Below are positions 26,656-35,615 of a stretch of DNA of 38,419 bases, piece by piece. The notes beneath the pieces were generated by a model that saw only the letters and a program-made list of their open reading frames with translations, was not told the origin of the DNA and did no database searches. A program made the translations under genes and the position numbers. Source of the DNA: Caulobacter sp. (GTDB lineage Bacteria > Pseudomonadota > Alphaproteobacteria > Caulobacterales > Caulobacteraceae); assembly GCA_017744495.1 (NCBI GenBank), contig JAGIBE010000210.1, positions 1 to 38,419 of the forward strand. The letters run 5' to 3'. Numbering within the stretch: position 1 is the stretch's first letter; the number at the start of each line of letters is the position of its first letter.

Positions 26656-26681
26656 GGAACTTGTCGCCTCGGCTTCGCGTT
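26656..26681 (+). promoter_or_regulatory. SigT (EcfG) promoter for the DUF883-like gene
   Basis: GGAAC (26656-26660), a 17-nt spacer, then CGTT (26678-26681). It lies 64 bp upstream of the ATG at 26746 and points towards the DUF883-like, membrane-protein and possibly sodB genes. Confidence 0.65.
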
Positions 26682-26745
26682 GTGCGGGCGCAGCTTCGCG
26701 CTGCCCGCCCCGAACAAGAACCCGAGCCGCGAACCGGAGATTCTC

Positions 26746-27132
26746 ATGCCCGACAACAGCCTGAACCCCGCACTGAATGAAGCAAGCAAGGCGTCGTCGA
26801 ACGCCGGCGCGGCCTTCGATCACGCCGAGCGCAGCTTCGGTGAAGCCGCCAGCGCCGCTCGCGCCAATCTGAGCGAGGCCGCGGCCTCGGCCAAGGCCAA
26901 TCTGTCCGACGCCGCCAAGCGCATCGAGGCGTCGCTGACCCAGGGCCTGGAGACCCTGCGGGCCCAGACCCGCACCTACACCGACACGGCCAGCCAACAG
27001 GTCGATGAAGCCAGCCGCTATGTCAGCGAGCGCGTTCGCGAGCGCCCGATCACCGCCACCCTGGCCGGGCTCGGCGTCGGCGTCCTGCTGGGCCTGCTGC
27101 TGGCCGGAAACCGTAGCGGCCGCGACAAGTGA
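26746..27132 (+). CDS. DUF883/ElaB-YqjD-like membrane-anchored protein
   Basis: This 128-residue protein is an Ala/Glu/Lys-rich amphipathic helix (about residues 5-100) of near-heptad repeats (AASAARANLSEAAASAKANLSDAAKRIEAS). It is followed by RERPITATLAGLGVGVLLGLLLAG, a single C-terminal membrane span of the DUF883 type. E. coli relatives (ElaB, YqjD) are stationary-phase inner-membrane proteins, some associated with ribosomes; the role here is not known. ATG 26746 has GGAGA upstream. The stop overlaps the next gene by 4 nt. A SigT-type promoter precedes it, so it is probably a general stress gene. Confidence 0.8.
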   Translation: MPDNSLNPALNEASKASSNAGAAFDHAERSFGEAASAARANLSEAAASAKANLSDAAKRIEASLTQGLETLRAQTRTYTDTASQQVDEASRYVSERVRERPITATLAGLGVGVLLGLLLAGNRSGRDK

Positions 27133-27530
27133 TTTTTGGAAAGACTCTGACGACCCTGGCAGCGGCCGCGGCGATCGCCGCGGCCGCTGCTGTGAGCGTG
27201 GTCTCCGCCGCCTTCGCGCTGTTCGCGGTGCTGGCGCCGCATCTCGGCTCCGCCGGCGCGGCCGCCGTGGTCGCGGCCGTGGCCGCGGCGATCGTCGGGA
27301 TCGCCGGCTTAGTTGCCGCGCTCAAGGCCGAGGATAGGGTGCATCACCATCAGACCGCCGGACCTGACGGTTTCGCCTTCGCCGAGAAGGCCATCGAGAT
27401 GGTCAAGGAGCGTCCCATCCTGACAGTCAGCGCAGGCTTGGCGGCGGGGATCATCGCCTTCCGTAACCCGGCGTTGGCCGCGGTGGTGGCCAAGGCGCTT
27501 CTGGATTCGCAGAAGCCGCCGCCTCGCTAG
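27129..27530 (+). CDS. Small Ala-rich multi-span membrane protein
   Basis: The 133-residue product has an Ala-rich hydrophobic stretch (about residues 7-38), a second (about 40-65), and a C-terminal segment VKERPILTVSAGLAAGIIAFRNPAL that resembles the DUF883 tail of the upstream protein. I would group it with the YqjE/holin-like partners that follow YqjD-type genes, but no diagnostic motif is present. The GTG at 27129 overlaps the upstream stop (GTGA), so the two are translated together and should share the SigT promoter. Residues 10-20 are encoded by a perfect 32-bp palindrome. Confidence 0.7.
   Translation: MIFGKTLTTLAAAAAIAAAAAVSVVSAAFALFAVLAPHLGSAGAAAVVAAVAAAIVGIAGLVAALKAEDRVHHHQTAGPDGFAFAEKAIEMVKERPILTVSAGLAAGIIAFRNPALAAVVAKALLDSQKPPPR
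27159..27190. repeat. Perfect 32-bp palindrome inside a coding region
   Basis: Bases 27159-27174 are the exact reverse complement of 27175-27190, with no spacer. The sequence contains two GCGGCCGC octamers symmetric about a GCGATCGC core. It codes for an Ala-rich run (AAAAAIAAAAA) of the membrane protein. Confidence 0.9.
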
Positions 27531-27617
27531 CTGGTTTCGACAAGACGAGCTTTCCCCGCCTCTGGTTTTCTGGGCCTCCCCGCCCATCTTCCGGGGGCGT
27601 TTTGCCCTGGAGCGATC

Positions 27618-28235
27618 ATGTTCAAACTCCCCGACCTCCCCTACGCCTATGAAGCCCTGGAGCCGACCATCTCGGCCAACACGCTTCATTTCCATCATGA
27701 CAAGCATCACGCGGCCTATGTGAACGCGCTGAACGGCCTGCTGCCGGAAGGCGACGCGCGCTCGCTGGAAGCGATCATCAAGGAAGCCGGCCCCGGCAAG
27801 GTATTCAACAACGCCGCCCAGATCTGGAATCACCAGTTCTTCTGGGAGTGCATGAGCGCCGACAAGGCGGGTCCGGGCGCCGAGCTGTCGGCCGCCATCG
27901 CCGAAGCGTTCGGCGACCTGGCCGGCCTGAAGGAGAAGTTCGTCGCCGAGGGCGTCGGCCACTTCGGTTCGGGCTGGGTGTGGCTGGCCTATCAGGGCGG
28001 CAAGCTGGTGGTGCTCTCCACCCACGACGCCGACGACACCTTGACCAAGGACGGCACCACCCCGCTGCTGGTCTGCGACGTCTGGGAACACGCCTACTAC
28101 CTGGACCATCAGAACAACCGGAAAGGTTTCCTGGAAGCCTGGTTCGACGTCCTGCCCAACTGGGCGTTCGCCGACGCCCAGTTCGCCGCGGCCAAGGGCC
28201 ATGGGGCCGTCTGGACCTTTCCCCAATCCGCCTAA
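27618..28235 (+). CDS. sodB: Superoxide dismutase, iron type
   Basis: The 205-residue enzyme dismutates superoxide in the cytoplasm. The metal ligands are His26 in HFHHDKHHAAYV, the His of IWNHQFFW, and the Asp and last His of CDVWEHAYYLDH. The Gln in NNAAQIWN, before the second ligand, is the position that marks Fe-type enzymes. Length and the FKLPDLPYAYEALEP start match SodB. An RBS (CTGGAG) precedes the ATG at 27618. No separate SigT motif is visible in the 87-bp gap, so it may be read through from the upstream stress promoter. Its likely terminator lies within the 3' end of the opposing gene. Confidence 0.96.
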   Translation: MFKLPDLPYAYEALEPTISANTLHFHHDKHHAAYVNALNGLLPEGDARSLEAIIKEAGPGKVFNNAAQIWNHQFFWECMSADKAGPGAELSAAIAEAFGDLAGLKEKFVAEGVGHFGSGWVWLAYQGGKLVVLSTHDADDTLTKDGTTPLLVCDVWEHAYYLDHQNNRKGFLEAWFDVLPNWAFADAQFAAAKGHGAVWTFPQSA

Positions 28236-28250
28236 GCGGTCGGGAATCTC

Positions 28251-29102
28251 CTAGACCTTGAGCGGCGCGACTCCGGTCGCGCCGTTTTCATTTGGGCCTT
28301 TCGGAATGCAGCGTCGGGGCACGGACCAGGTCCGGAAGGTCACGAACTGGGTGCGCTCGAAGGCGAGAGCCGTGATGCGGATATCGACGTCGTCGACCTC
28401 GATCACGTTGAAGCTGGGCGGCACGCCTCGCTCGCGCACCGACAGAGTCCCCGATCCCACTGCCTGGGTGCAGCCGTCCGAGAACGGGTAGGGATGCACG
28501 AACGGCGCATGGATGTGGCCGGTCAGGACCAGGTCGACGCCCGCATGGGCGAAGGCCTGGGCGGCCGCCGTGCCGCCGTGCACCTTGGCCGTCATTGGGC
28601 CGCCGATCATCTCGATCAGGGGGTGGTGGCAGACCACGATCTTGAGGGCGTCGGGCGCCGCGCCCTTCAGGTCGGCGCAGACGTCCCGGACCTGACGACG
28701 CGACACCGCCCCCTTGGACCAGTTGGCTCGCAGCTGGAAGGCGCGGGCCGAGTTCAGGGTGACCACCGTGGCGCGGGGATCGTCCCAATCGCTGTTCATC
28801 CGCGCGCCGAACCGCTCCTCGTACCGCCGCCAGGGTGCGACCAGTCGGGTCAGGATCTCGCGCGGCCCGGCGAACGGCACATCGTGGTTGCCGGGCGAGA
28901 CCAGGCGTGGTCCGGGCAGCCGGTCGAGCCAGGCCAGGGCGGCGTCGAATTCCTCAATCTTGCCGTCCTTGGTCAGGTCGCCGGCGGCGATCACCAGGTC
29001 GGGCGCTTCGGCATGGATGCGTTCGACGGCCGCCTCGACGGCGGGCTTGTGCTCGCCGCCGAAATGGATGTCGGAAACCTGGACCAGCTTGAGCGGTTTC
29101 AT
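28251..29102 (-). CDS. Calcineurin-like metallophosphoesterase
   Basis: The 283-residue protein has the full metallophosphoesterase motif set: Asp11 and His13 in VSDIHFGG, GDLTKDG with Asp42, GNHD (Asn72, His73), VCHHPL and LTGHIHAPF. These bind two metal ions. Homologues include cyclic-nucleotide phosphodiesterases and lipid phosphatases such as UDP-diacylglucosamine hydrolases; the substrate is open. The frame extends upstream, but ATG 29102 overlaps the TGA of the lipid kinase gene (ATGA) and begins the conserved strand. Its 3' end forms the hairpin that probably terminates sodB. It is the second gene of a putative SigT-driven operon. Confidence 0.92.
   Translation of the reverse strand: MKPLKLVQVSDIHFGGEHKPAVEAAVERIHAEAPDLVIAAGDLTKDGKIEEFDAALAWLDRLPGPRLVSPGNHDVPFAGPREILTRLVAPWRRYEERFGARMNSDWDDPRATVVTLNSARAFQLRANWSKGAVSRRQVRDVCADLKGAAPDALKIVVCHHPLIEMIGGPMTAKVHGGTAAAQAFAHAGVDLVLTGHIHAPFVHPYPFSDGCTQAVGSGTLSVRERGVPPSFNVIEVDDVDIRITALAFERTQFVTFRTWSVPRRCIPKGPNENGATGVAPLKV
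28263..28288 (+). terminator. Intrinsic terminator of sodB, embedded in the opposing gene
   Basis: CGGCGCGAC (28263-28271), loop TCCG, GTCGCGCCG (28276-28284), then TTTT. It follows the sodB stop (28235) and lies inside the last 13 codons of the metallophosphoesterase on the other strand. Confidence 0.8.
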
Positions 29103-29962
29103 GGGGTGGACGATTGGGATGCCGGGACCAGGGCGCGGAAGGCCTTGGGGCGGAAGCGGATGCTGACGGTGTCGTCGAGCCGGGCCGGCTCGCCGTCGAA
29201 GATGGCGGGGATGCGGCCGCCGGCCCAGACCTTGCCGATCCGACACCGGCCGACACTGACCGAAGGGTCGTCGCGCCAGTCGCCCGTTACTGTCTTGACG
29301 CCCAGACGGAAGATGTCGAGGGCGCTGCTGGGGTCGAGGGCCGCGGCTTCCAGAGCCCGTTCGTCCTCATGAAGCGCCGTCGAGACCAGAGGGCACATCA
29401 GGGTCAAGGCCTCGGTCTTGCCCTTGGGGCGACCGTCCAGGACGTAGCGCAGCCGGCTTGAGAAGGCCCGGCGCAGGGCGCGGCGGGCCCGTAGCACGGC
29501 CAGGTCGGCTCGCCCGGCCCGCGCAGCCTCGCGAGCCTCGGCCCAGAGGGCTGGACTGCCGAGGATAGCGGCGACGAAGAATAGACGGCCATTGACCTCG
29601 CCCCCCGAGATCATCCGCTCCTGACCGCTCTTCAGGCAGTCAGCCATGGCGGTCTGCCATGGGACGACGCCGTACAGAGCGTGGGGCAGCATGTTCATCG
29701 TGCCGCCCGGCAGGGGGGCGACCATCGGGCCGTCAGGCCCGGCCATCTCGGCGGCGGCGCGAGCGGTGCCGTCGCCGGCCACCACCAGCAAGGCCTCGGG
29801 CTCGGCGTCGAGGGCCTCGCGCAGGCAGGTGTTCAGGTCCTTCTCGCCGGGCGCGTGCACCCGGCCCGTGACCCCGTGTTCGGCCAGGATGGCCTCGGCT
29901 TGGCCGGGGGCGTCCTTGCCCACCGAGCCGGACGCGATGTTGGTGACGACTTCCACACGCAT
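29099..29962 (-). CDS. Diacylglycerol/lipid kinase family protein
   Basis: This 287-residue protein has the DAGK catalytic fold: NIASGSVGK near the N-terminus, the GDGT motif at residues 63-66 in VVAGDGTARAAAEM, and PLPGGTMNMLP (84-92), the counterpart of 'PlGT.Ndfa'. The C-terminal half includes EVNGRLFFVAAILGSPA and IFDGEPARLDDTVSI, the DGE-type motif of this family. Members phosphorylate diacylglycerol, phosphatidylglycerol or sphingoid bases. It is coupled by 4 nt to a metallophosphoesterase, so the pair may interconvert lipid phosphates. A SigT-type promoter precedes it with a leader of about 40 nt. Confidence 0.92.
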   Translation of the reverse strand: MRVEVVTNIASGSVGKDAPGQAEAILAEHGVTGRVHAPGEKDLNTCLREALDAEPEALLVVAGDGTARAAAEMAGPDGPMVAPLPGGTMNMLPHALYGVVPWQTAMADCLKSGQERMISGGEVNGRLFFVAAILGSPALWAEAREAARAGRADLAVLRARRALRRAFSSRLRYVLDGRPKGKTEALTLMCPLVSTALHEDERALEAAALDPSSALDIFRLGVKTVTGDWRDDPSVSVGRCRIGKVWAGGRIPAIFDGEPARLDDTVSIRFRPKAFRALVPASQSSTP

Positions 29963-30009
29963 GCGAAATTCCGTTTGGCGCTAAGGGCGCGGGGAGGTTC
30001 GAGACCAGA

Positions 30010-30034
30010 AACGGCGGCGCTTGAGCGCGGTTCC
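30010..30034 (-). promoter_or_regulatory. SigT (EcfG) promoter for the lipid kinase operon
   Basis: On the minus strand GGAAC (30030-30034), N16, CGTT (30010-30013), an exact match to the EcfG consensus. It directs transcription to the kinase ATG at 29962. Confidence 0.72.
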
Positions 30035-30035
30035 C

Positions 30036-30061
30036 GGAACCGTTGTCGCGGCGAGCTCGTT
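30036..30061 (+). promoter_or_regulatory. SigT (EcfG) promoter for the glycine-zipper lipoprotein
   Basis: GGAAC (30036-30040), N17, CGTT (30058-30061), 36 bp before the ATG at 30097. Its -35 box and that of the divergent promoter meet in the palindrome GGTTCC-C-GGAACC (30029-30041). Confidence 0.7.
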
Positions 30062-30096
30062 TGCCTGCTTGGGACAAGCTCGAACGGAGAGCCACG

Positions 30097-30438
30097 ATGA
30101 ACAAGACTTTGATCGCCCTCTTGGGCGTCGGCGTGCTGGCCAGCGCTTGCACCGCCACGGGCAACACGGAACGTAACGCCGCGGGCGGCGCGGCCCTGGG
30201 CGCCCTGGCGGGCGCGGTGGTCGGCAACAATGTCGGCGGCGGCAGCGCCACGACCGGCGCTTTGGTCGGCGCGGCGCTGGGCGGCACCGTCGGCGCCGTG
30301 AAAGGCTGCCGCGAAGACGGCGGCTGCGGTTCCACCAACGTCAATCGCCGTCAGTACTATGACGAGCGCGCCGGACGGTATTACTACTATGACTCGCGCA
30401 GCGGTCGTTACTACTGGGAAGACGGCAGCCCCCGTTAA
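30097..30438 (+). CDS. Glycine-zipper outer-membrane lipoprotein
   Basis: The 113-residue product has a lipoprotein signal, MNKTLIALLGVGVLASAC (lipobox LASAC, Cys18). Next is a Gly-zipper segment, AAGGAALGALAGAVVGNNVGGG and TGALVGAALGGTVGAVKG (about residues 29-70), of the SlyB/YMGG type. It ends in a Tyr-rich tail with repeated RYYYYDSRSGRYYWEDG. Gly-zipper lipoproteins sit in or at the outer membrane and support envelope integrity. A SigT promoter lies just upstream and an intrinsic terminator just downstream, so it is probably monocistronic and stress-induced. Confidence 0.87.
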   Translation: MNKTLIALLGVGVLASACTATGNTERNAAGGAALGALAGAVVGNNVGGGSATTGALVGAALGGTVGAVKGCREDGGCGSTNVNRRQYYDERAGRYYYYDSRSGRYYWEDGSPR

Positions 30439-30466
30439 GTCGGGCCTGGCCTGAAATCTTCAGAAA

Positions 30467-30494
30467 GGCGGTCGGCTCGCGTCGGCCGCCTTTT
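30467..30494 (+). terminator. Intrinsic terminator after the glycine-zipper gene
   Basis: GGCGGTCGGC (30467-30476), loop TCGC, GTCGGCCGCC (30481-30490), followed by TTTT. The 10-bp stem has two G-U pairs. Confidence 0.75.
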
Positions 30495-30523
30495 GCGCGC
30501 CGTGACGTCAGAGAGGGCAAACG

Positions 30524-30988
30524 ATGAAGAAAGTCGGATTGGCGATCGTCGGCGTGGCGGTGCTGGGCGGTCTCGTGGCGGGATGCGCGACAAGCAATCC
30601 CTGGCCCAAGTCCAGGTCCCAGATCGTGAAGACGGCGCCCAGCTGCGAGGACTTCGCGGTGCAGATCTATTTCGAGGATAAGTCGGCCAAGCTGACCAAC
30701 GAGGCGCGTTCAGTGCTCAAGGGCGCTGACGCCCTGGCCACGGGCTGCAAGGTCGCCTCGGTTCGGGTGGTCGGCTTGGCGGACGCCAAGGGCTTGCCCG
30801 AGGCCAGCCTGGCGATTTCCAAGCAGCGCGCCGATGTCGTGACCCGGGCCCTGGCGAAGATGGGTTACGGCAATGTCGAGTTCGACGTGGGCGCGGCTGG
30901 TGACGCCGGCGCCACCACCAGCGACGGCGAAGCGCGGCCCCTGCGGCGCCGCGCCGACATCCGGTTCGACCTGGACGGCAAGCTCTAG
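30524..30988 (+). CDS. OmpA-domain lipoprotein
   Basis: The 154-residue protein has a lipoprotein signal with lipobox LVAGC (Cys21) and an OmpA C-like peptidoglycan-binding domain (about residues 45-150). The domain shows VQIYFEDKSAKLTNEARSVL, then VRVVGLADAKGLPEASLAISKQRADVV, the counterpart of 'G.tD..G....N..LS..RA..V', and ends in RPLRRRADIRF with the conserved Arg. It probably ties the outer membrane to the wall, like Pal. The RBS GAGAGGG precedes the ATG at 30524. No SigT motif is seen in its short leader. The 316 bp after it hold a minus-strand sRNA and two stress promoters, not a protein gene. Confidence 0.88.
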   Translation: MKKVGLAIVGVAVLGGLVAGCATSNPWPKSRSQIVKTAPSCEDFAVQIYFEDKSAKLTNEARSVLKGADALATGCKVASVRVVGLADAKGLPEASLAISKQRADVVTRALAKMGYGNVEFDVGAAGDAGATTSDGEARPLRRRADIRFDLDGKL

Positions 30989-31014
30989 TCGCGGTCCTCC
31001 GCCCTTCCGCGCAT

Positions 31015-31124
31015 CAAAAAAGGCGGATCCGCGAGGGTCCGCCTGAAGGGCAAAAGAGGGGGTGCGGAGGCGACAGGCTGGCTTTCACCAGCCTCAAGTC
31101 GGGGGGGCGTCGCCGCCTCCGCAA
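31015..31124 (-). ncRNA. gsrN: GsrN-like stress-induced small RNA
   Basis: A transcript of about 110 nt is defined on the minus strand by a perfect SigT promoter at 31131-31155 and an intrinsic terminator at 31016-31044. From its first bases (TGCGGAGGCGGCGAC, 31123-31109) it pairs with GTCGCCTCCGCA (31074-31063), a 12-bp stem with a 3-nt bulge. This encloses an unpaired run of seven C residues (31107-31101) and a 7-bp hairpin AGGCTGG/CCAGCCT (31094-31075). A CU-rich linker leads to the terminator stem. Caulobacter GsrN is a SigT-dependent sRNA of about this size whose C-rich 5' loop activates katG translation. Promoter, size, C-rich loop and location beside phyR-sigT agree; I had no sequence alignment, so identity is strong inference. 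Confidence 0.78.
31016..31044 (-). terminator. Intrinsic terminator of the GsrN-like sRNA
   Basis: On the minus strand AGGCGGA (31044-31038), a 10-nt loop, and TCCGCCT (31027-31021) run into six T residues (31021-31016). The hairpin is symmetric enough to slow plus-strand transcription from the OmpA-like gene too, but the T-run is on the minus strand. Confidence 0.85.
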
Positions 31125-31130
31125 ATCGAA

Positions 31131-31155
31131 AACGTGGCTCCCCCGACAGGGTTCC
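31131..31155 (-). promoter_or_regulatory. SigT (EcfG) promoter of the GsrN-like sRNA
   Basis: On the minus strand GGAAC (31151-31155), N16, CGTT (31131-31134), an exact consensus match. The predicted start (around 31124) coincides with the first base of the sRNA stem. Confidence 0.8.
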
Positions 31156-31235
31156 CGCCATCCGAAACTTTTTTCGCCTTTTCCGCGATTATTTTTTCGG
31201 GACTCTTGAGAAGCCCATTCAGGCGGGGCCCGCAC

Positions 31236-31260
31236 GGAACGTCGCCCGCGACGAGACGTT
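31236..31260 (+). promoter_or_regulatory. SigT (EcfG) promoter for two small membrane-protein genes
   Basis: GGAAC (31236-31240), N16, CGTT (31257-31260), an exact consensus match 45 bp upstream of the GTG at 31305. The preceding bases 31160-31205 are T-rich and contain no gene. Confidence 0.75.
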
Positions 31261-31304
31261 GATTTTCCAGGAGGCCGTATGGCCTCGAACTGGGGAGCAA
31301 CGTC

Positions 31305-31514
31305 GTGATCCGCACCTTTCAGACCGAACATGGTGGACTGGCCTTCGAAAGCGCGCCGACGCGGCGGCAGAAGGCTCGACGCAATCGCCTGACGGCGTTG
31401 GTGGTGATCGCCGCGGTGGCGGCGTCGGCGGGGCTTCTCCAGCACTTCAATGACAACCTGGCTCCAGGCGGTCCGGCGACGTCCGGCGCGGGAGCCTATT
31501 ACGCCGCCCGATAA
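31305..31514 (+). CDS. Small single-span membrane protein
   Basis: The 69-residue product has a cytoplasmic, Arg-rich start (about residues 1-28, ending RRQKARRNR), one membrane span LTALVVIAAVAASAGLL (about 29-46) and a short Gly/Ala/Tyr tail. I do not recognise a family. The GTG start at 31305 is supported by GGAGCAACGTC upstream. It is the first gene after a perfect SigT promoter and lies 11 bp before a second small membrane-protein gene, so it is probably a stress-induced envelope protein. Confidence 0.65.
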   Translation: MIRTFQTEHGGLAFESAPTRRQKARRNRLTALVVIAAVAASAGLLQHFNDNLAPGGPATSGAGAYYAAR

Positions 31515-31525
31515 GGAGGCTCCCA

Positions 31526-31777
31526 ATGCCCGCCGACCTCGAACAACATCATCCCGCCGTCAACGCCACCCGCGCTCGTCAAGGCCGTTGGGGCAAGCAC
31601 GTCTTCTGGGTCCTTATCATTTCGACCGTTCTGGCCGCCGCCGCCCTGTTCGGCGCATGGGGTATGCGCTCGGGTGACATCGCCAGCGTGGAGCATACGC
31701 GTGGCGCGACCACTCAGGGCGAAGCCCAGCAGTACTCGACCGAGCAGGCGCCGGTGAAGCAGACGCCGGCCGGCTGA
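31526..31777 (+). CDS. Small single-span membrane protein
   Basis: This 83-residue protein has a 22-residue hydrophilic start, a membrane span HVFWVLIISTVLAAAALFGAW (about residues 25-45) and a polar, Gln/Thr/Glu-rich tail that should face the periplasm. The family is not recognised. An excellent RBS, AAGGAGG at 31512-31518, overlaps the stop of the preceding gene. It shares that gene's SigT promoter. Confidence 0.72.
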   Translation: MPADLEQHHPAVNATRARQGRWGKHVFWVLIISTVLAAAALFGAWGMRSGDIASVEHTRGATTQGEAQQYSTEQAPVKQTPAG

Positions 31778-31811
31778 CCTGCTTCGAACGGGTGGCGCGA
31801 GGCGCCGCAAA

Positions 31812-31841
31812 GAAAAAGGCCCCGGTGAAAGCCGGGGCCTT
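31812..31841 (-). terminator. Intrinsic terminator of phyR
   Basis: AAGGCCCCGG (31816-31825), loop TGAAAG, CCGGGGCCTT (31832-31841). On the minus strand, downstream of the phyR stop (31865), the stem runs into CCTTTTTCTTTG. It may also end the plus-strand small-gene operon. Confidence 0.85.
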
Positions 31842-31864
31842 GATCGTTTGGAGCCTGACGAGGA

Positions 31865-32665
31865 TCAGGCCGCCTTCTGGGTCCGGCGCGGATGGAAGAA
31901 CAGCGCTTGGCCGATCGCCGCCTTCACGGTCTCCGGTTGGAAGGGCTTGGTGATCAGGAAAGTCGGCTCCGGACGCTCGCCGGTCAGCAGGCGCTCGGGG
32001 AATGCGGTGATGAAGATCACCGGGACATCCAGGCGAGCCAGGATGTCCTTGACCGCGTCGATACCCGACGAGCCGTCGGCCAACTGGATATCGGCCAGCA
32101 CCAGTCCGGGCGTGCGGCGGGACACCGCGTCGACCGCCTCGCCGCGGGTGGCGGCGATATCGATCACGTCATGGCCCAGTTCGCGGACCAGGGCTTCGAT
32201 GTCGGCGGCGATCACCGGCTCGTCCTCGATGATCAGGACCTCCGTGGCCAGTTCGGCGTCGATCTCGGCCTGGGCCTCGGCGATCAGCCGTTCGACCTCG
32301 GCGAAGTCGCAATCGAGAATCTGCGACGCCTCGGTTGGCGTGAAGCCTTCCAGGGCGGTCAGCAGGAACGCCTGGCGTGAACGCGGGGCGATGCGCATCA
32401 GCCGCTGCGAGGCGTCGTCGGCGGCGTTGGACTGGTCGTCGCGTCGCGCTTCCAGCTGGGCGCCCGAGGACAGCCAGATGGCGTGGAACACGCGATACAA
32501 GGCGACGCGCGGCGACAGGTTGGCGTCCAGCGACCGCTCGCCGGCCGCCAGGGCCTCGAGCGCGACGCGGACATAGTGGTCGCCTGTGGTCTGGTCGCCG
32601 GTCAGGGCGCGCGCGTAGCGACGAACGTAGGGCAGGTGCGGCGCCAGCCGGGCAAGAAGACTCAT
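31865..32665 (-). CDS. phyR: Anti-anti-sigma factor PhyR
   Basis: The 266-residue central regulator of the alphaproteobacterial general stress response has an N-terminal sigma-like domain (about residues 1-130; LLARLAPHLPYVRRYARALTGD, then a sigma4-like PTEASQILDCDFAEVERLI). A receiver domain (about 138-258) follows, with acidic pocket IIEDEP, phospho-acceptor Asp192 in LADIQLADGSSG, ITAFPERL and Lys in TKPFQP (the FATGUY-type motif). When phosphorylated it exposes the sigma-like domain and sequesters NepR, freeing SigT. An RBS GGGAGGGG precedes the ATG at 32665. It is divergent from nepR-sigT with an exact SigT promoter, so it is autoregulated. Confidence 0.97.
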   Translation of the reverse strand: MSLLARLAPHLPYVRRYARALTGDQTTGDHYVRVALEALAAGERSLDANLSPRVALYRVFHAIWLSSGAQLEARRDDQSNAADDASQRLMRIAPRSRQAFLLTALEGFTPTEASQILDCDFAEVERLIAEAQAEIDAELATEVLIIEDEPVIAADIEALVRELGHDVIDIAATRGEAVDAVSRRTPGLVLADIQLADGSSGIDAVKDILARLDVPVIFITAFPERLLTGERPEPTFLITKPFQPETVKAAIGQALFFHPRRTQKAA

Positions 32666-32745
32666 GACCCCTCCCGTGTGAGTGTCTTCGGGTACAAAAA
32701 AGCCGGGGGTGCGGTGAAGCTACGCCGTTCGGCCATCCGAACATA

Positions 32746-32770
32746 AACGCAACCCCCGGACCCCGGTTCC
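32746..32770 (-). promoter_or_regulatory. SigT (EcfG) promoter of phyR
   Basis: On the minus strand GGAAC (32766-32770), N16, CGTT (32746-32749), an exact match about 80 bp upstream of the phyR ATG. Confidence 0.85.
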
Positions 32771-32821
32771 ATGGCAGGTTCCGAAGTCAGAAGATTTTTG
32801 CCATCATACGCTCAAGCTTGT

Positions 32822-32846
32822 GGAACCCCATACGGAATCCGACGTT
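32822..32846 (+). promoter_or_regulatory. SigT (EcfG) promoter of nepR-sigT
   Basis: GGAAC (32822-32826), N16, CGTT (32843-32846). It shows that the long nepR frame opening at 32818 cannot all be translated from this transcript, and so favours the downstream start at 32911. Confidence 0.85.
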
Positions 32847-32910
32847 GTCATCGAGCGTACTCTCATTCGGCCAAAGGGGGCGGGCGCCGCGCATCGCCGG
32901 CGTCGAGGAC

Positions 32911-33096
32911 ATGATCGAACACGTACCCATGGAAGATCACCGCAAAGGGGCGGCCGCGCTGGACGAAGCGCGGCTCCGTCAGCAGGCTATCGGCGTCAAG
33001 CTTCGTCAGATGTTCGACGAGGTTGTGAACGAGCCGGTCCCCGACGAGTTTCTGGACATCCTGCGTAAGGCCGAGACGCCTTCGGGAGAGCGTTGA
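32911..33096 (+). CDS. nepR: Anti-sigma factor NepR
   Basis: This 61-residue protein matches NepR, the anti-sigma factor that holds SigT inactive and is bound by phosphorylated PhyR. The conserved helix pair is RLRQQAIGVKLRQMFDEVVNEPVPDEFLDILRKA (about residues 21-54), where the VPDEF stretch joins the two helices that wrap around the sigma factor or PhyR. The start is set at ATG 32911 because the SigT promoter covers the earlier part of the frame; ATG 32929 is an alternative, and GAGGA at 32905-32909 is rather close. It lies 2 bp before sigT in the same operon. Confidence 0.9.
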   Translation: MIEHVPMEDHRKGAAALDEARLRQQAIGVKLRQMFDEVVNEPVPDEFLDILRKAETPSGER

Positions 33097-33098
33097 GC

Positions 33099-33704
33099 AT
33101 GAGCGAAGCGCAAGTCGGCCGCTCGCCCTTCGACCCGGCCCGCGACGGGACCTTCAAGAAGGAACTCGTCACGCTCATTCCTCATTTGCGCGCCTTCGCC
33201 CGCACCTTGACGGGGGATCCCACCGCCGCTGACGACTTGGCGCAGGACGCCATGATGAAGGCTTGGGACGCCCGGGCCAGCTTCCAGCTGGGCACCAACA
33301 TGAAGGCGTGGACCTTCATGATCCTGCGCAACCAGTTCTATTCCGAGAAGCGCCGGTCCTGGCGCCAGAGCCAGCTCGACCAGGAAGCGGCCGAACGCAC
33401 TCTGGTGGCGGTCGATGACCCCGAGGCGCCGGTGGCCCTGGACGAGCTGCGGCTCAGCCTGGCGATGCTGCCGCCGGAACAGCGCGAAGCCTTGATCCTG
33501 GTTGGGGCCGGCGGCTTCGCCTACGAAGAGGCCGCCGAGATCTGCGGCTGCGCCGTGGGTACGGTGAAGAGCCGGGTCAGCCGCGCGCGGCGCGCCCTGC
33601 AGGCCATTCTCGAGGCCGGCGCCTATGACCGCGACGGCGCCGCCGCCGGCGACGCCATGTACGCCATCCTGGCCGACGCGGAGAGACTGAGCACCCTGCG
33701 GTGA
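33099..33704 (+). CDS. sigT: ECF sigma factor SigT (EcfG family)
   Basis: The 201-residue sigma factor drives the general stress regulon. Region 2 (about residues 20-90) has [33 protein letters not shown] and [20 protein letters not shown]. Region 4 (about 120-170) has [54 protein letters not shown] with the HTH. The EcfG type recognises GGAAC-N16/17-CGTT, which is found repeatedly in this window. ATG 33099 has GGAGAG at 33084-33089. The frame's upstream TTG at 33093 would overlap nepR and is less likely. Its stop overlaps the phyK start (GTGA). Confidence 0.96.
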
Positions 33705-35413
33705 AGCCTCTTCTCGGGCGAGGGGCCGGGGCGGTCGGATCCATCCGGGTCCGTCTGGCCGGCGCGCTGTTTCTCGCGCTCCTGCCTGTGCTGATCCTAG
33801 GCGTGCTGCAATCGGTGTTCGCCTTCAAGGCTGAGGCCGATTCGCGCCGTCAGAGCCTGGAACTGGCGGCCGGGCGCAGCGCCGCCATCGCTCGTGCTCG
33901 CATCGAGGCCGCCGGCGTCCTGCTCCAGACCCTGGGGCCGGGCTCGGTCGGGCTGGAATGCACCCAGCGGCTGGACACGGTGAGGGAGCGCCTGCCGGGC
34001 TACGCCAACCTGATCCGTTTCGACGCCTATGGCCGGGTGTCCTGCGCGGCCGGCACCACGCCGGCCGACCCCACCCGCGCCAACCGTCGCTGGTTCCAGC
34101 GCCTCGCCGCCGGCTCGCACATGGTGGTGGCCAGCATCCCGGGCGTGACCTATGCGGACGAGCCCGCGGTCCTGACGGCCGTACGGGCCGAGACGCGCGA
34201 TGGCCGTTTCGACGGCGCGATGGCCGCCGTCCTGACCCTGTCGACCATCCAGCCCGAAACCGCCAACCGCTATCTGCCGGGCGGAGCTGACGTGGCCCTG
34301 GCCGACTCCGAGGGCCATGTCTTCGCGGCCACCAATCCGCGGGCGTTCGGCACGCCGTCCACGGCCTGGCGCGACCAGGCGGTCAAGAACGGCTCGGCCC
34401 TGTGGTCGGGCCGCGACGCCGACGATCGCTCGCGCGACTTTTCGGCCGCGCCCCTGGTCGGTCAGGAGGTGTTCGTCATCCTGTCGGCCAAGGCGCCTGG
34501 CATCGCCTCCTGGGCCTGGCTGAATCCGATGCTCCGCCTGTTGGCGCCGCTGCTGGCCTTCATCCTGGCCCTGGCGGCCGTGCTCTACGCCACCGAGCAG
34601 GCGGTCATCCGCTGGATCGTCTATCTGCGCCGGGTCGCGGCCATCTACGCGCGGGGTCGCTTCACCGTGCGTCCGCTGCAGGCCGAGCGCGCGCCGCCGG
34701 AGATCCGCGAACTGGCGGCCACCCTCGACGACATGGCCGCCGGCATCGTGGCTCGCGACGCCTCTCTGCGCGACAGCCTGGGCGAGAAGGACGCGCTGAT
34801 GCGCGAGATCCATCATCGGGTGAAGAACAACCTGCAGATCATCTCCAGTCTGCTGAACATGCAGCAGCGAGCCTTGACCGATCCGGCCGCCCGCACGGCC
34901 CTGAACGACACCCGCCAGCGGATCACCGCCCTGGCCCAGATCTATCGCGCGCTCTACCAGGGTCCCGACCTCAAGCGCGTGGATCTGCGCCCGTTCCTGG
35001 AGGAGCTGACGGCCCTGCTGCTGGCTGGCGACATGTCGACCGGCGGTCCGATCCGCACCGAGGTCCACGCCGATCCGCTGGTCATCGATCCCGACCGCCT
35101 GGCGCCCCTGGCTCTGTTCGCGGTCGAGGCGATCACCAACGCCCAGAAGCACGCCCTGGCCGAGCGCGGCGGCACGCTGACGGTCGACTTCTTCGTGCGC
35201 GGGGAAGAGGCCGAGCTGGCCATCGGCGATGACGGTCCCGGCGCGCCCAAGGGGCCGGTCGAGGGGGTGGGCCGAACCCTGATGACGGCCTTCGCACGCC
35301 AGCTGCGCGGCAAACTCCTGTTCGAGGAGTCGCCGGCCGGCGGTCTGCTGGTGCGCCTGGTTTTCCCGACGCCGCAGGCCCCTTCGGTCGAGCCTGCGAC
35401 GCCCGGAACCTAG
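33701..35413 (+). CDS. phyK: Membrane sensor histidine kinase PhyK
   Basis: The 570-residue kinase has two membrane spans (about residues 18-42 and 270-300) around a periplasmic sensor domain of about 225 residues containing Cys87 and Cys115. A HAMP-like linker follows, then the HisKA_2 box [23 protein letters not shown] with phospho-acceptor His372, and a HATPase with [14 protein letters not shown] (N-box) and IGDDGPGAP (G1). It would phosphorylate PhyR. In Caulobacter a periplasmic Cys of PhyK has been reported as essential; Cys87 or Cys115 may correspond. GTG 33701 overlaps the sigT stop by 4 nt, so the kinase is cotranscribed with its target sigma factor. Confidence 0.94.
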
Positions 35414-35429
35414 CTGGGCCATCTACGTT
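35405..35429 (+). promoter_or_regulatory. SigT (EcfG) promoter of the entericidin-like gene
   Basis: GGAAC (35405-35409), N16, CGTT (35426-35429), an exact consensus match that overlaps the phyK stop codon (35411-35413) and lies 52 bp before the ATG at 35481. Confidence 0.8.
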
Positions 35430-35480
35430 CTTGTGGGGCAACAGCTCAGACGCCCTTTGGGCGATCACCGGAGAAGACCC

Positions 35481-35615
35481 ATGCGTAAGTTCATCGTTCT
35501 GGCCGCGATCGCCGCCAGCCTCACCGTCGCCGCCTGCAACACCGTGGAAGGCGCCGGCAAGGACGTCTCGTCGGCCGGCCAGGCCGTCAGCGACACCGCC
35601 AAGGACGCCAAGTAG
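35481..35615 (+). CDS. Entericidin-like small lipoprotein
   Basis: This 44-residue lipoprotein has a signal MRKFIVLAAIAASLTVAAC with lipobox TVAAC (Cys19), followed by NTVEGAGKDVSSAGQAVSDTAKDAK, the amphipathic pattern of the entericidin A/B family (EcnAB). Entericidins form a small antidote/toxin lipoprotein pair in E. coli; in alphaproteobacteria single copies of this family are common general stress genes of unclear function. GGAGA lies upstream of the ATG at 35481. A SigT promoter precedes it and a terminator follows, so it is a monocistronic stress gene. Confidence 0.88.
   Translation: MRKFIVLAAIAASLTVAACNTVEGAGKDVSSAGQAVSDTAKDAK

Follow-up and report, generated by a model that had tools for sequence, protein, structure and literature searches.

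Sequence Analysis of a gsrN-Family Small RNA Gene next to phyR in Caulobacter sp. and of Its Candidate Targets

Introduction

The closest described relative of the RNA treated here is GsrN (ccna_R0081) of Caulobacter crescentus, a small RNA that promotes the survival of Caulobacter under stress. In C. crescentus, the GsrN loop pairs with the seven nucleotides at the 5' end of the katG mRNA (Tien et al. 2018, PMC5869019), and a table of that paper gives the katG interacting sequence as GUCGGGG. The paper also reports GsrN ends at C53, T54, and T64, and a nucleotide 37 that tolerates a tag. Furthermore, C-rich GsrN-like RNAs predicted in the Rhizobiaceae are described there as also having an EcfG promoter, proximity to GSR genes, and an exposed C-rich loop, and they were not found by BLASTn with GsrN.

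In the present study, a 38,419-nt stretch of Caulobacter sp. DNA (contig JAGIBE010000210.1 of assembly GCA_017744495.1, forward strand), called the window below, was analyzed around a minus-strand RNA gene that had been predicted from the letters alone. The window's RNA and C. crescentus GsrN, as described by Tien et al. (PMC5869019), share the SigT promoter, the 5' stem, the C-rich loop, the terminator, and a size of about 100 nt. They differ in four respects: the window's RNA has seven C instead of six, its linker is without GAUG whereas C. vibrioides-like copies have GATGCG, its gene lies beside phyR-nepR-sigT whereas the C. crescentus gene is distal to them, and the pairing site in katG is missing from its usual position.

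Features of the gsrN Locus

The features of the window are as follows, with the basis of each in brackets.

31131–31155, minus strand: SigT (EcfG) promoter GGAAC-N16-CGTT (sequence and pattern scan)
31015–31122, minus strand: gsrN, small RNA of about 108 nt with the predicted +1 at the G at 31122 (RF01529 match, published GsrN positions)
31112–31122, minus strand: 5' arm of the 11-bp long stem (fold, pair counts)
31101–31107, minus strand: run of seven C (C7) exposed in the 5' loop, where mRNAs are presumably recognized (sequence, published GsrN targets)
31075–31094, minus strand: inner 8-bp hairpin with a GAAA tetraloop (fold; both-side changes in six of eight pairs)
31064–31074, minus strand: 3' arm of the long stem (fold)
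31045–31063, minus strand: single-stranded linker without the GAUG motif of most homologues (alignment, motif count)
31016–31044, minus strand: intrinsic terminator, hairpin and U6 (fold, sequence)
31865–32665, minus strand: phyR, general stress response regulator (Pfam PhyR_sigma2, PhyR_sigma-like, Response_reg)
32830–33096, plus strand: nepR, anti-sigma factor, start codon uncertain (Pfam NepR, 2.1e-15)
33093–33704, plus strand: sigT/ecfG sigma factor (Pfam Sigma70_r2, Sigma70_r4_2)
33701–35413, plus strand: HisKA_2/HWE sensor kinase, phyK-like by position only (Pfam HisKA_2, 3.1e-26)
30524–30988, plus strand: OmpA-family gene, convergent with gsrN (Pfam OmpA, 2e-9)
26656–35429: eight strict SigT-type promoters (pattern scan)

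The gsrN gene sits between the OmpA-family gene and phyR. About 0.7 kb separates the gsrN promoter from the 3' end of phyR, the nearer of the two phyR ends, which bears out the original prediction that the two genes are less than 1 kb apart. In the comparison of loci, an OmpA-family homologue was found at the same side of gsrN in many related loci, and the most similar PhyR (99%) belonged to the locus of Caulobacter sp. UNC358MFTsu5.1 (L129/L198), in which the 5' domain of the RNA is identical to that of the window.

Two further genes with SigT-type promoters were observed. An entericidin-family small protein gene (35405–35615, plus strand) lies 3' of the sensor kinase gene, and a glycine-zipper protein gene (30036–30438, plus strand) with its own promoter lies about 0.6 kb past gsrN. 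Inspection of the leader of the latter by eye revealed no G tract. The published GsrN target osrP encodes a glycine-zipper protein; no paper joining osrP with GsrN was found in a literature search.

Promoter, Transcript Start and Predicted Fold

The SigT promoter had been predicted as GGAAC-N16-CGTT, and the pattern scan recovered exactly this arrangement at 31155–31131 on the minus strand, followed by 8 nt and then by the RNA start. Upstream of gsrN, 34 of 38 Caulobacter loci carried GGAAC and CGTT separated by 16 or 17 nt, the 38 being the loci with the loop pattern among 40 fetched by place. By analogy with C. crescentus, expression of the gene in the window's species would depend on SigT.

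The minimum free energy (MFE) of positions 31015–31122 on the minus strand was −51.8 kcal/mol, against −36.4 kcal/mol for shuffled sequences (z = −4.3), and none of 200 shuffles was as good. The 2-nt-longer sequence 31015–31124 gave −52.4 kcal/mol, and its shuffles averaged −36.3 kcal/mol (z = −4.7; 0 of 200 as good). In the predicted fold, an 11-bp stem closes the C7 loop and an 8-bp inner hairpin, and the linker and the terminator follow. The MFE fold has a 2-bp pairing within the C loop, and the centroid fold is without it. The C7 run beside an inner hairpin, as first described, is present both in the sequence and in the predicted folds. The terminator with six U residues was likewise recovered: its hairpin occurs in the fold and in the Rfam structure, and TTTTTT (U6) follows it on the minus strand. 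The gsrN hairpin was not among the matches of a simple terminator scan.

The transcript start had originally been placed at 31124, on the first base of a 12-bp stem, with a length of 110 nt. It is likely the G at 31122 instead, because the positions published for GsrN are reproduced in the C. vibrioides-like homologues only if the corresponding G is counted as +1. When the landmarks C53, T54, T64, and tag site 37 were placed on two such homologues (L184 and L191), only one of the five starts tried was in agreement with them. This start, the G of GCGAAGG, gives C, T, and T at the three ends, puts position 37 in the tetraloop, and corresponds to window position 31122. Counted from there, the stem has 11 pairs, or 12 if the U at 31123 is counted. 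The corrected size is about 107–108 nt, and the features of the predicted compact RNA were otherwise confirmed in the sequence.

The 5' half of the RNA would be a stem presenting the C-rich loop. This loop would pair with G-rich stretches of other RNAs, for example mRNA leaders, and the pairing would raise or lower the expression of the RNAs concerned. The 3' half carries the terminator and would be cut away, leaving a stable 5' form; this processing, the stabilization by Hfq, and the pairing with mRNAs are expected in the window's species by analogy with C. crescentus.

A strict GAUG pattern was found in the linker of 119 of 150 distinct homologues (98 in one form and 21 in another). Seven of the other 31 hold GATG in another setting, and 24 are without it. 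The window's linker lacks GAUG according to both the alignment and the strict pattern, and the motif is also absent in eight close loci (L134, L185, L189, L198, L201, L206, L207, and L221). The window's RNA would therefore rely on its 5' loop.

Identity of the RNA Family

A search of all Rfam gave a single match in the whole window, namely RF01529 (CC3552) at 31022–31120. The match was full length (model positions 1–106) and scored 78.7 bits, compared with a gathering score of 50. Relative to the model, the window lacks seven positions; six of these belong to the linker, and the seventh belongs to the C run. No second RF01529 copy was found in the window's genome, an 85% complete assembly. Three other genomes, all of one genus (G151, G155, and G159), each contain an additional, weak RF01529 match; it is 117 nt long and, with 35–37 bits, below the cut-off.

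The main text of Tien et al. 2018 (PMC5869019) uses neither CC3552 nor Rfam, and a literature search found no paper joining Caulobacter with CC3552. Two agreements at the level of sequence indicate that RF01529 is GsrN. Firstly, the predicted GsrN-interacting sequences in Table 1 of Tien et al. (PMC5869019) include GUCGGGGGGCGUC and UCAAGUCGGGG. Taken together, these two read as the reverse complement of the RF01529 loop, GACGCCCCCCGACUUGA; the window loop is GACGCCCCCCGACUUGA plus one C. Secondly, the published nucleotide positions agree with one transcript start, as described above.

It is therefore highly probable that the window's RNA is GsrN, a SigT-type stress small RNA with the loop, stem, and terminator explained above. 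The original identification as GsrN was in agreement with the full-length RF01529 match, the loop, the promoter, the size, the stem, the phyR neighborhood, and the covariation. A second model, R1, covering the 5' domain, matched 31064–31122; it was built from 115 aligned 5' domains, and since the window is itself one of its rows, this match is not independent evidence.

SigT-Made mRNAs and the sod Leader as Candidate Targets

A 2018 J Bacteriol paper is said to treat GsrN in osmotic stress, and coherent feed-forward regulation by SigT and GsrN has reportedly been published. The RNA might be GsrN with other main targets in this lineage, namely SigT mRNAs starting with UCGGGGG, in a coherent feed-forward arrangement; we regard this as possible but consider it somewhat short of an even chance. 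A SigT promoter followed within 5–35 nt by TCGGGGG was matched 44 times in 33 of 75 Caulobacter genomes, compared with 13 matches of a reversed control pattern, although matches shared by descent were counted repeatedly and part of the matches are probably within genes. Among the 30 loci inspected, many had the tract 8–13 nt downstream of CGTT, close to where the transcript would be expected to begin. The downstream genes included those for small membrane proteins and a PAS-like protein, both assigned by reading the sequence. Moreover, a HAMP-domain protein gene had promoter and tract in three genomes (G164, G215, and G173), two of which (G164 and G173) are near the window's species when judged by the kinase gene (95–96%); in near relatives, one such mRNA would encode this HAMP-domain protein. 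In the window's genome, however, the HAMP leader was unreadable because the gene runs off the contig start. The single SigT-TCGGGGG match of this genome recurs letter for letter in two other genomes, but it probably lies inside a coding region and has no good downstream start. The SigT-made G-tract mRNAs are a lead as GsrN targets.

A wider reading is that the loop is near-frozen while its partners change: in this lineage, both the katG site and a second pairing region on the 3' side would have been lost, and GsrN would act mainly on SigT-made mRNAs with a G tract at their start. This combination appears rather unlikely as a whole.

Another sequence complementary to the GsrN loop, GGGGGCGT, is located at 27593–27600 on the plus strand, 25 nt before the start codon of sod (27618–28235). 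A start-codon pattern yielded 38 distinct related sod leaders, and 11 of them contained it. On visual inspection, several Caulobacter sod leaders have GGGGGCGT as an arm of a hairpin, and the C. vibrioides-like leaders keep a hairpin without a GGGGGCGT match. For this reason, the sod leader is kept as a mere lead.

katG as a Target

It was also considered whether GsrN works here exactly as in C. crescentus, with the C loop on the katG leader switching on KatG translation. The analysis covered 31 katG loci, the window's own and the best-scoring 30, of which 19 have a KatG at least 81% identical to the window's. The window's genome has one katG match, and its leader holds GGGGGGC, a perfect 7-nt match 69 to 63 nt before the start codon and the sole match of at least 6 nt. 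When the katG leaders were aligned, however, this tract fell where the relatives have promoter sequence, and about 0.2 seven-nucleotide matches per 120 nt are expected by chance.

Among the 19 close loci, seven carried a match of 7–8 nt at −39 to −49 (L163, L164, L171–L174, and L178). These include L171 and L172, whose genomes have a C. vibrioides-like gsrN and which carry at −39 the same GTCGGGG as the published katG sequence. Three further loci had 6 nt at this place (L157, L166, and L180). In contrast, seven of the 19 loci showed no match of at least 6 nt (L158, L159, L161, L162, L170, L175, and L181), the last being the nearest KatG relative (90%), and L177 had only 6 nt, at −118. In the 12 loci of other katG types, where start codons were picked by a script and some are doubtful (L155 and L176), one 7-nt match was found (L154, −15). 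Duplex energies were obtained for seven of the 19 katG leaders. The share of shuffles that were as good ranged from 0.10 to 0.775, with 0.26 for the window's own leader, and none was significant.

Given the displaced katG match, the number of matches expected by chance, and the non-significant duplexes, katG control in the window's species is unproven, and a mode of action exactly like that in C. crescentus is considered unlikely. The original prediction had pointed to GsrN as an activator of katG translation. Its GsrN part is supported, and its katG part may not carry over here, the GUCGGGG site not being at the matching position.

Distribution and Covariation

RF01529 was present in 208 of 299 Caulobacteraceae genomes, in 201 of them above the cut-off, and in 17 of 22 genera. 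Of the 14 control genomes, Caulobacter vibrioides was the only one in which it was detected. In a sample of 299 genomes from the order, RF01529 and R1 each found 52 genomes, and all matches listed belonged to Caulobacteraceae. gsrN homologues outside this family were looked for with both models in that sample, and none was seen among the matches listed. The result was in line with the BLASTn survey of 2018, as given in the available passages of Tien et al. (PMC5869019).

Compensatory changes in the stems had been proposed as a check on the RNA. In the alignment of 115 sequences, the two helices were paired in 99.4% of cells. The number of compensated cells was 135, compared with 28.5 in shuffles that leave relatedness in (0 of 500 as high), in an alignment whose every row holds the loop pattern, in which part of the 5' arm is fixed by the pattern, and whose rows, collected by pattern or Rfam model, favor sameness in the loop and the 5' arm. 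As a control, sliding the partner by 1–3 columns left at most 16 compensated cells. Both-side changes occurred in eight of 19 pairs (shuffle mean 4.9; 3 of 500 as high). One of the five covariation measures, that of further pair types, was unremarkable (19 vs. 17.7 in shuffles; 114 of 500 as high). The clearest covariation came from pairs outside the fixed part, namely the pair of columns 4 and 64 (G-C in 96 and A-U in 19) and the inner hairpin. These results support a stem conserved as RNA.

A reading without any RNA gene, in which the region would be just a terminator or repeat that ends the OmpA gene or a piece of a coding sequence, is scarcely credible and was dropped on account of the covariation, the Rfam match, and the conserved promoter pointing into the region: the region does adjoin the OmpA-like gene, and mechanical open reading frames overlap it on both strands, but the T run after the hairpin is on the minus strand.

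Genomic Place and SigT-Type Sites

Sixty loci were selected by the position of their Rfam matches, and the loop pattern is present in 57 of them. In 48 of the 57, phyR lies within 4 kb of gsrN, and one of the nine others stops at a contig end. The neighborhood of phyR is thus the usual arrangement and not special to the window. The window holds a known family in its known place; gsrN homologues beside phyR-nepR-sigT were already reported in the passages of Tien et al. 2018 (PMC5869019), which are silent on whether gsrN or the other genes moved in C. crescentus.

In five of the 38 Caulobacter loci, phyR is missing nearby (L184, L186, L191, L192, and L213). The opposite side of gsrN still has sod in all five, and in three of them it has ompA as well. 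Therefore, in the genomes with a separate gsrN, it seems that the GSR genes left while gsrN stayed.

The strict SigT pattern, GGAACN{15,17}CGTT, was found eight times in the window against 0.9 expected, and none of 100 shuffles reached eight. Around gsrN in 40 Caulobacter loci (about 8 kb each), there were 280 such sites, or 7.0 per locus, and the window's own 8.1 kb held six. In 30 katG loci (152 kb), no SigT site was detected. In addition, 36 of the 38 Caulobacter loci have an opposite-facing SigT site at most 350 bp upstream of gsrN. In the window, a second SigT-type promoter (31236–31260, plus strand) points away from the gsrN promoter and toward a small open reading frame (31305–31514, plus strand), for which a Pfam search gave no match.

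Conclusions

The present study adds a well-supported gsrN to the family and indicates that the structure of the 5' domain is kept across Caulobacteraceae. The further points concern a possible turnover of targets, the side of the locus that stays constant, and how densely SigT sites occur there. To judge from the leaders compared, katG, the best-studied target, may not be constant even within Caulobacter. If the reading with SigT-made G-tract mRNAs is true, GsrN would be a dedicated feed-forward arm of the SigT regulon.
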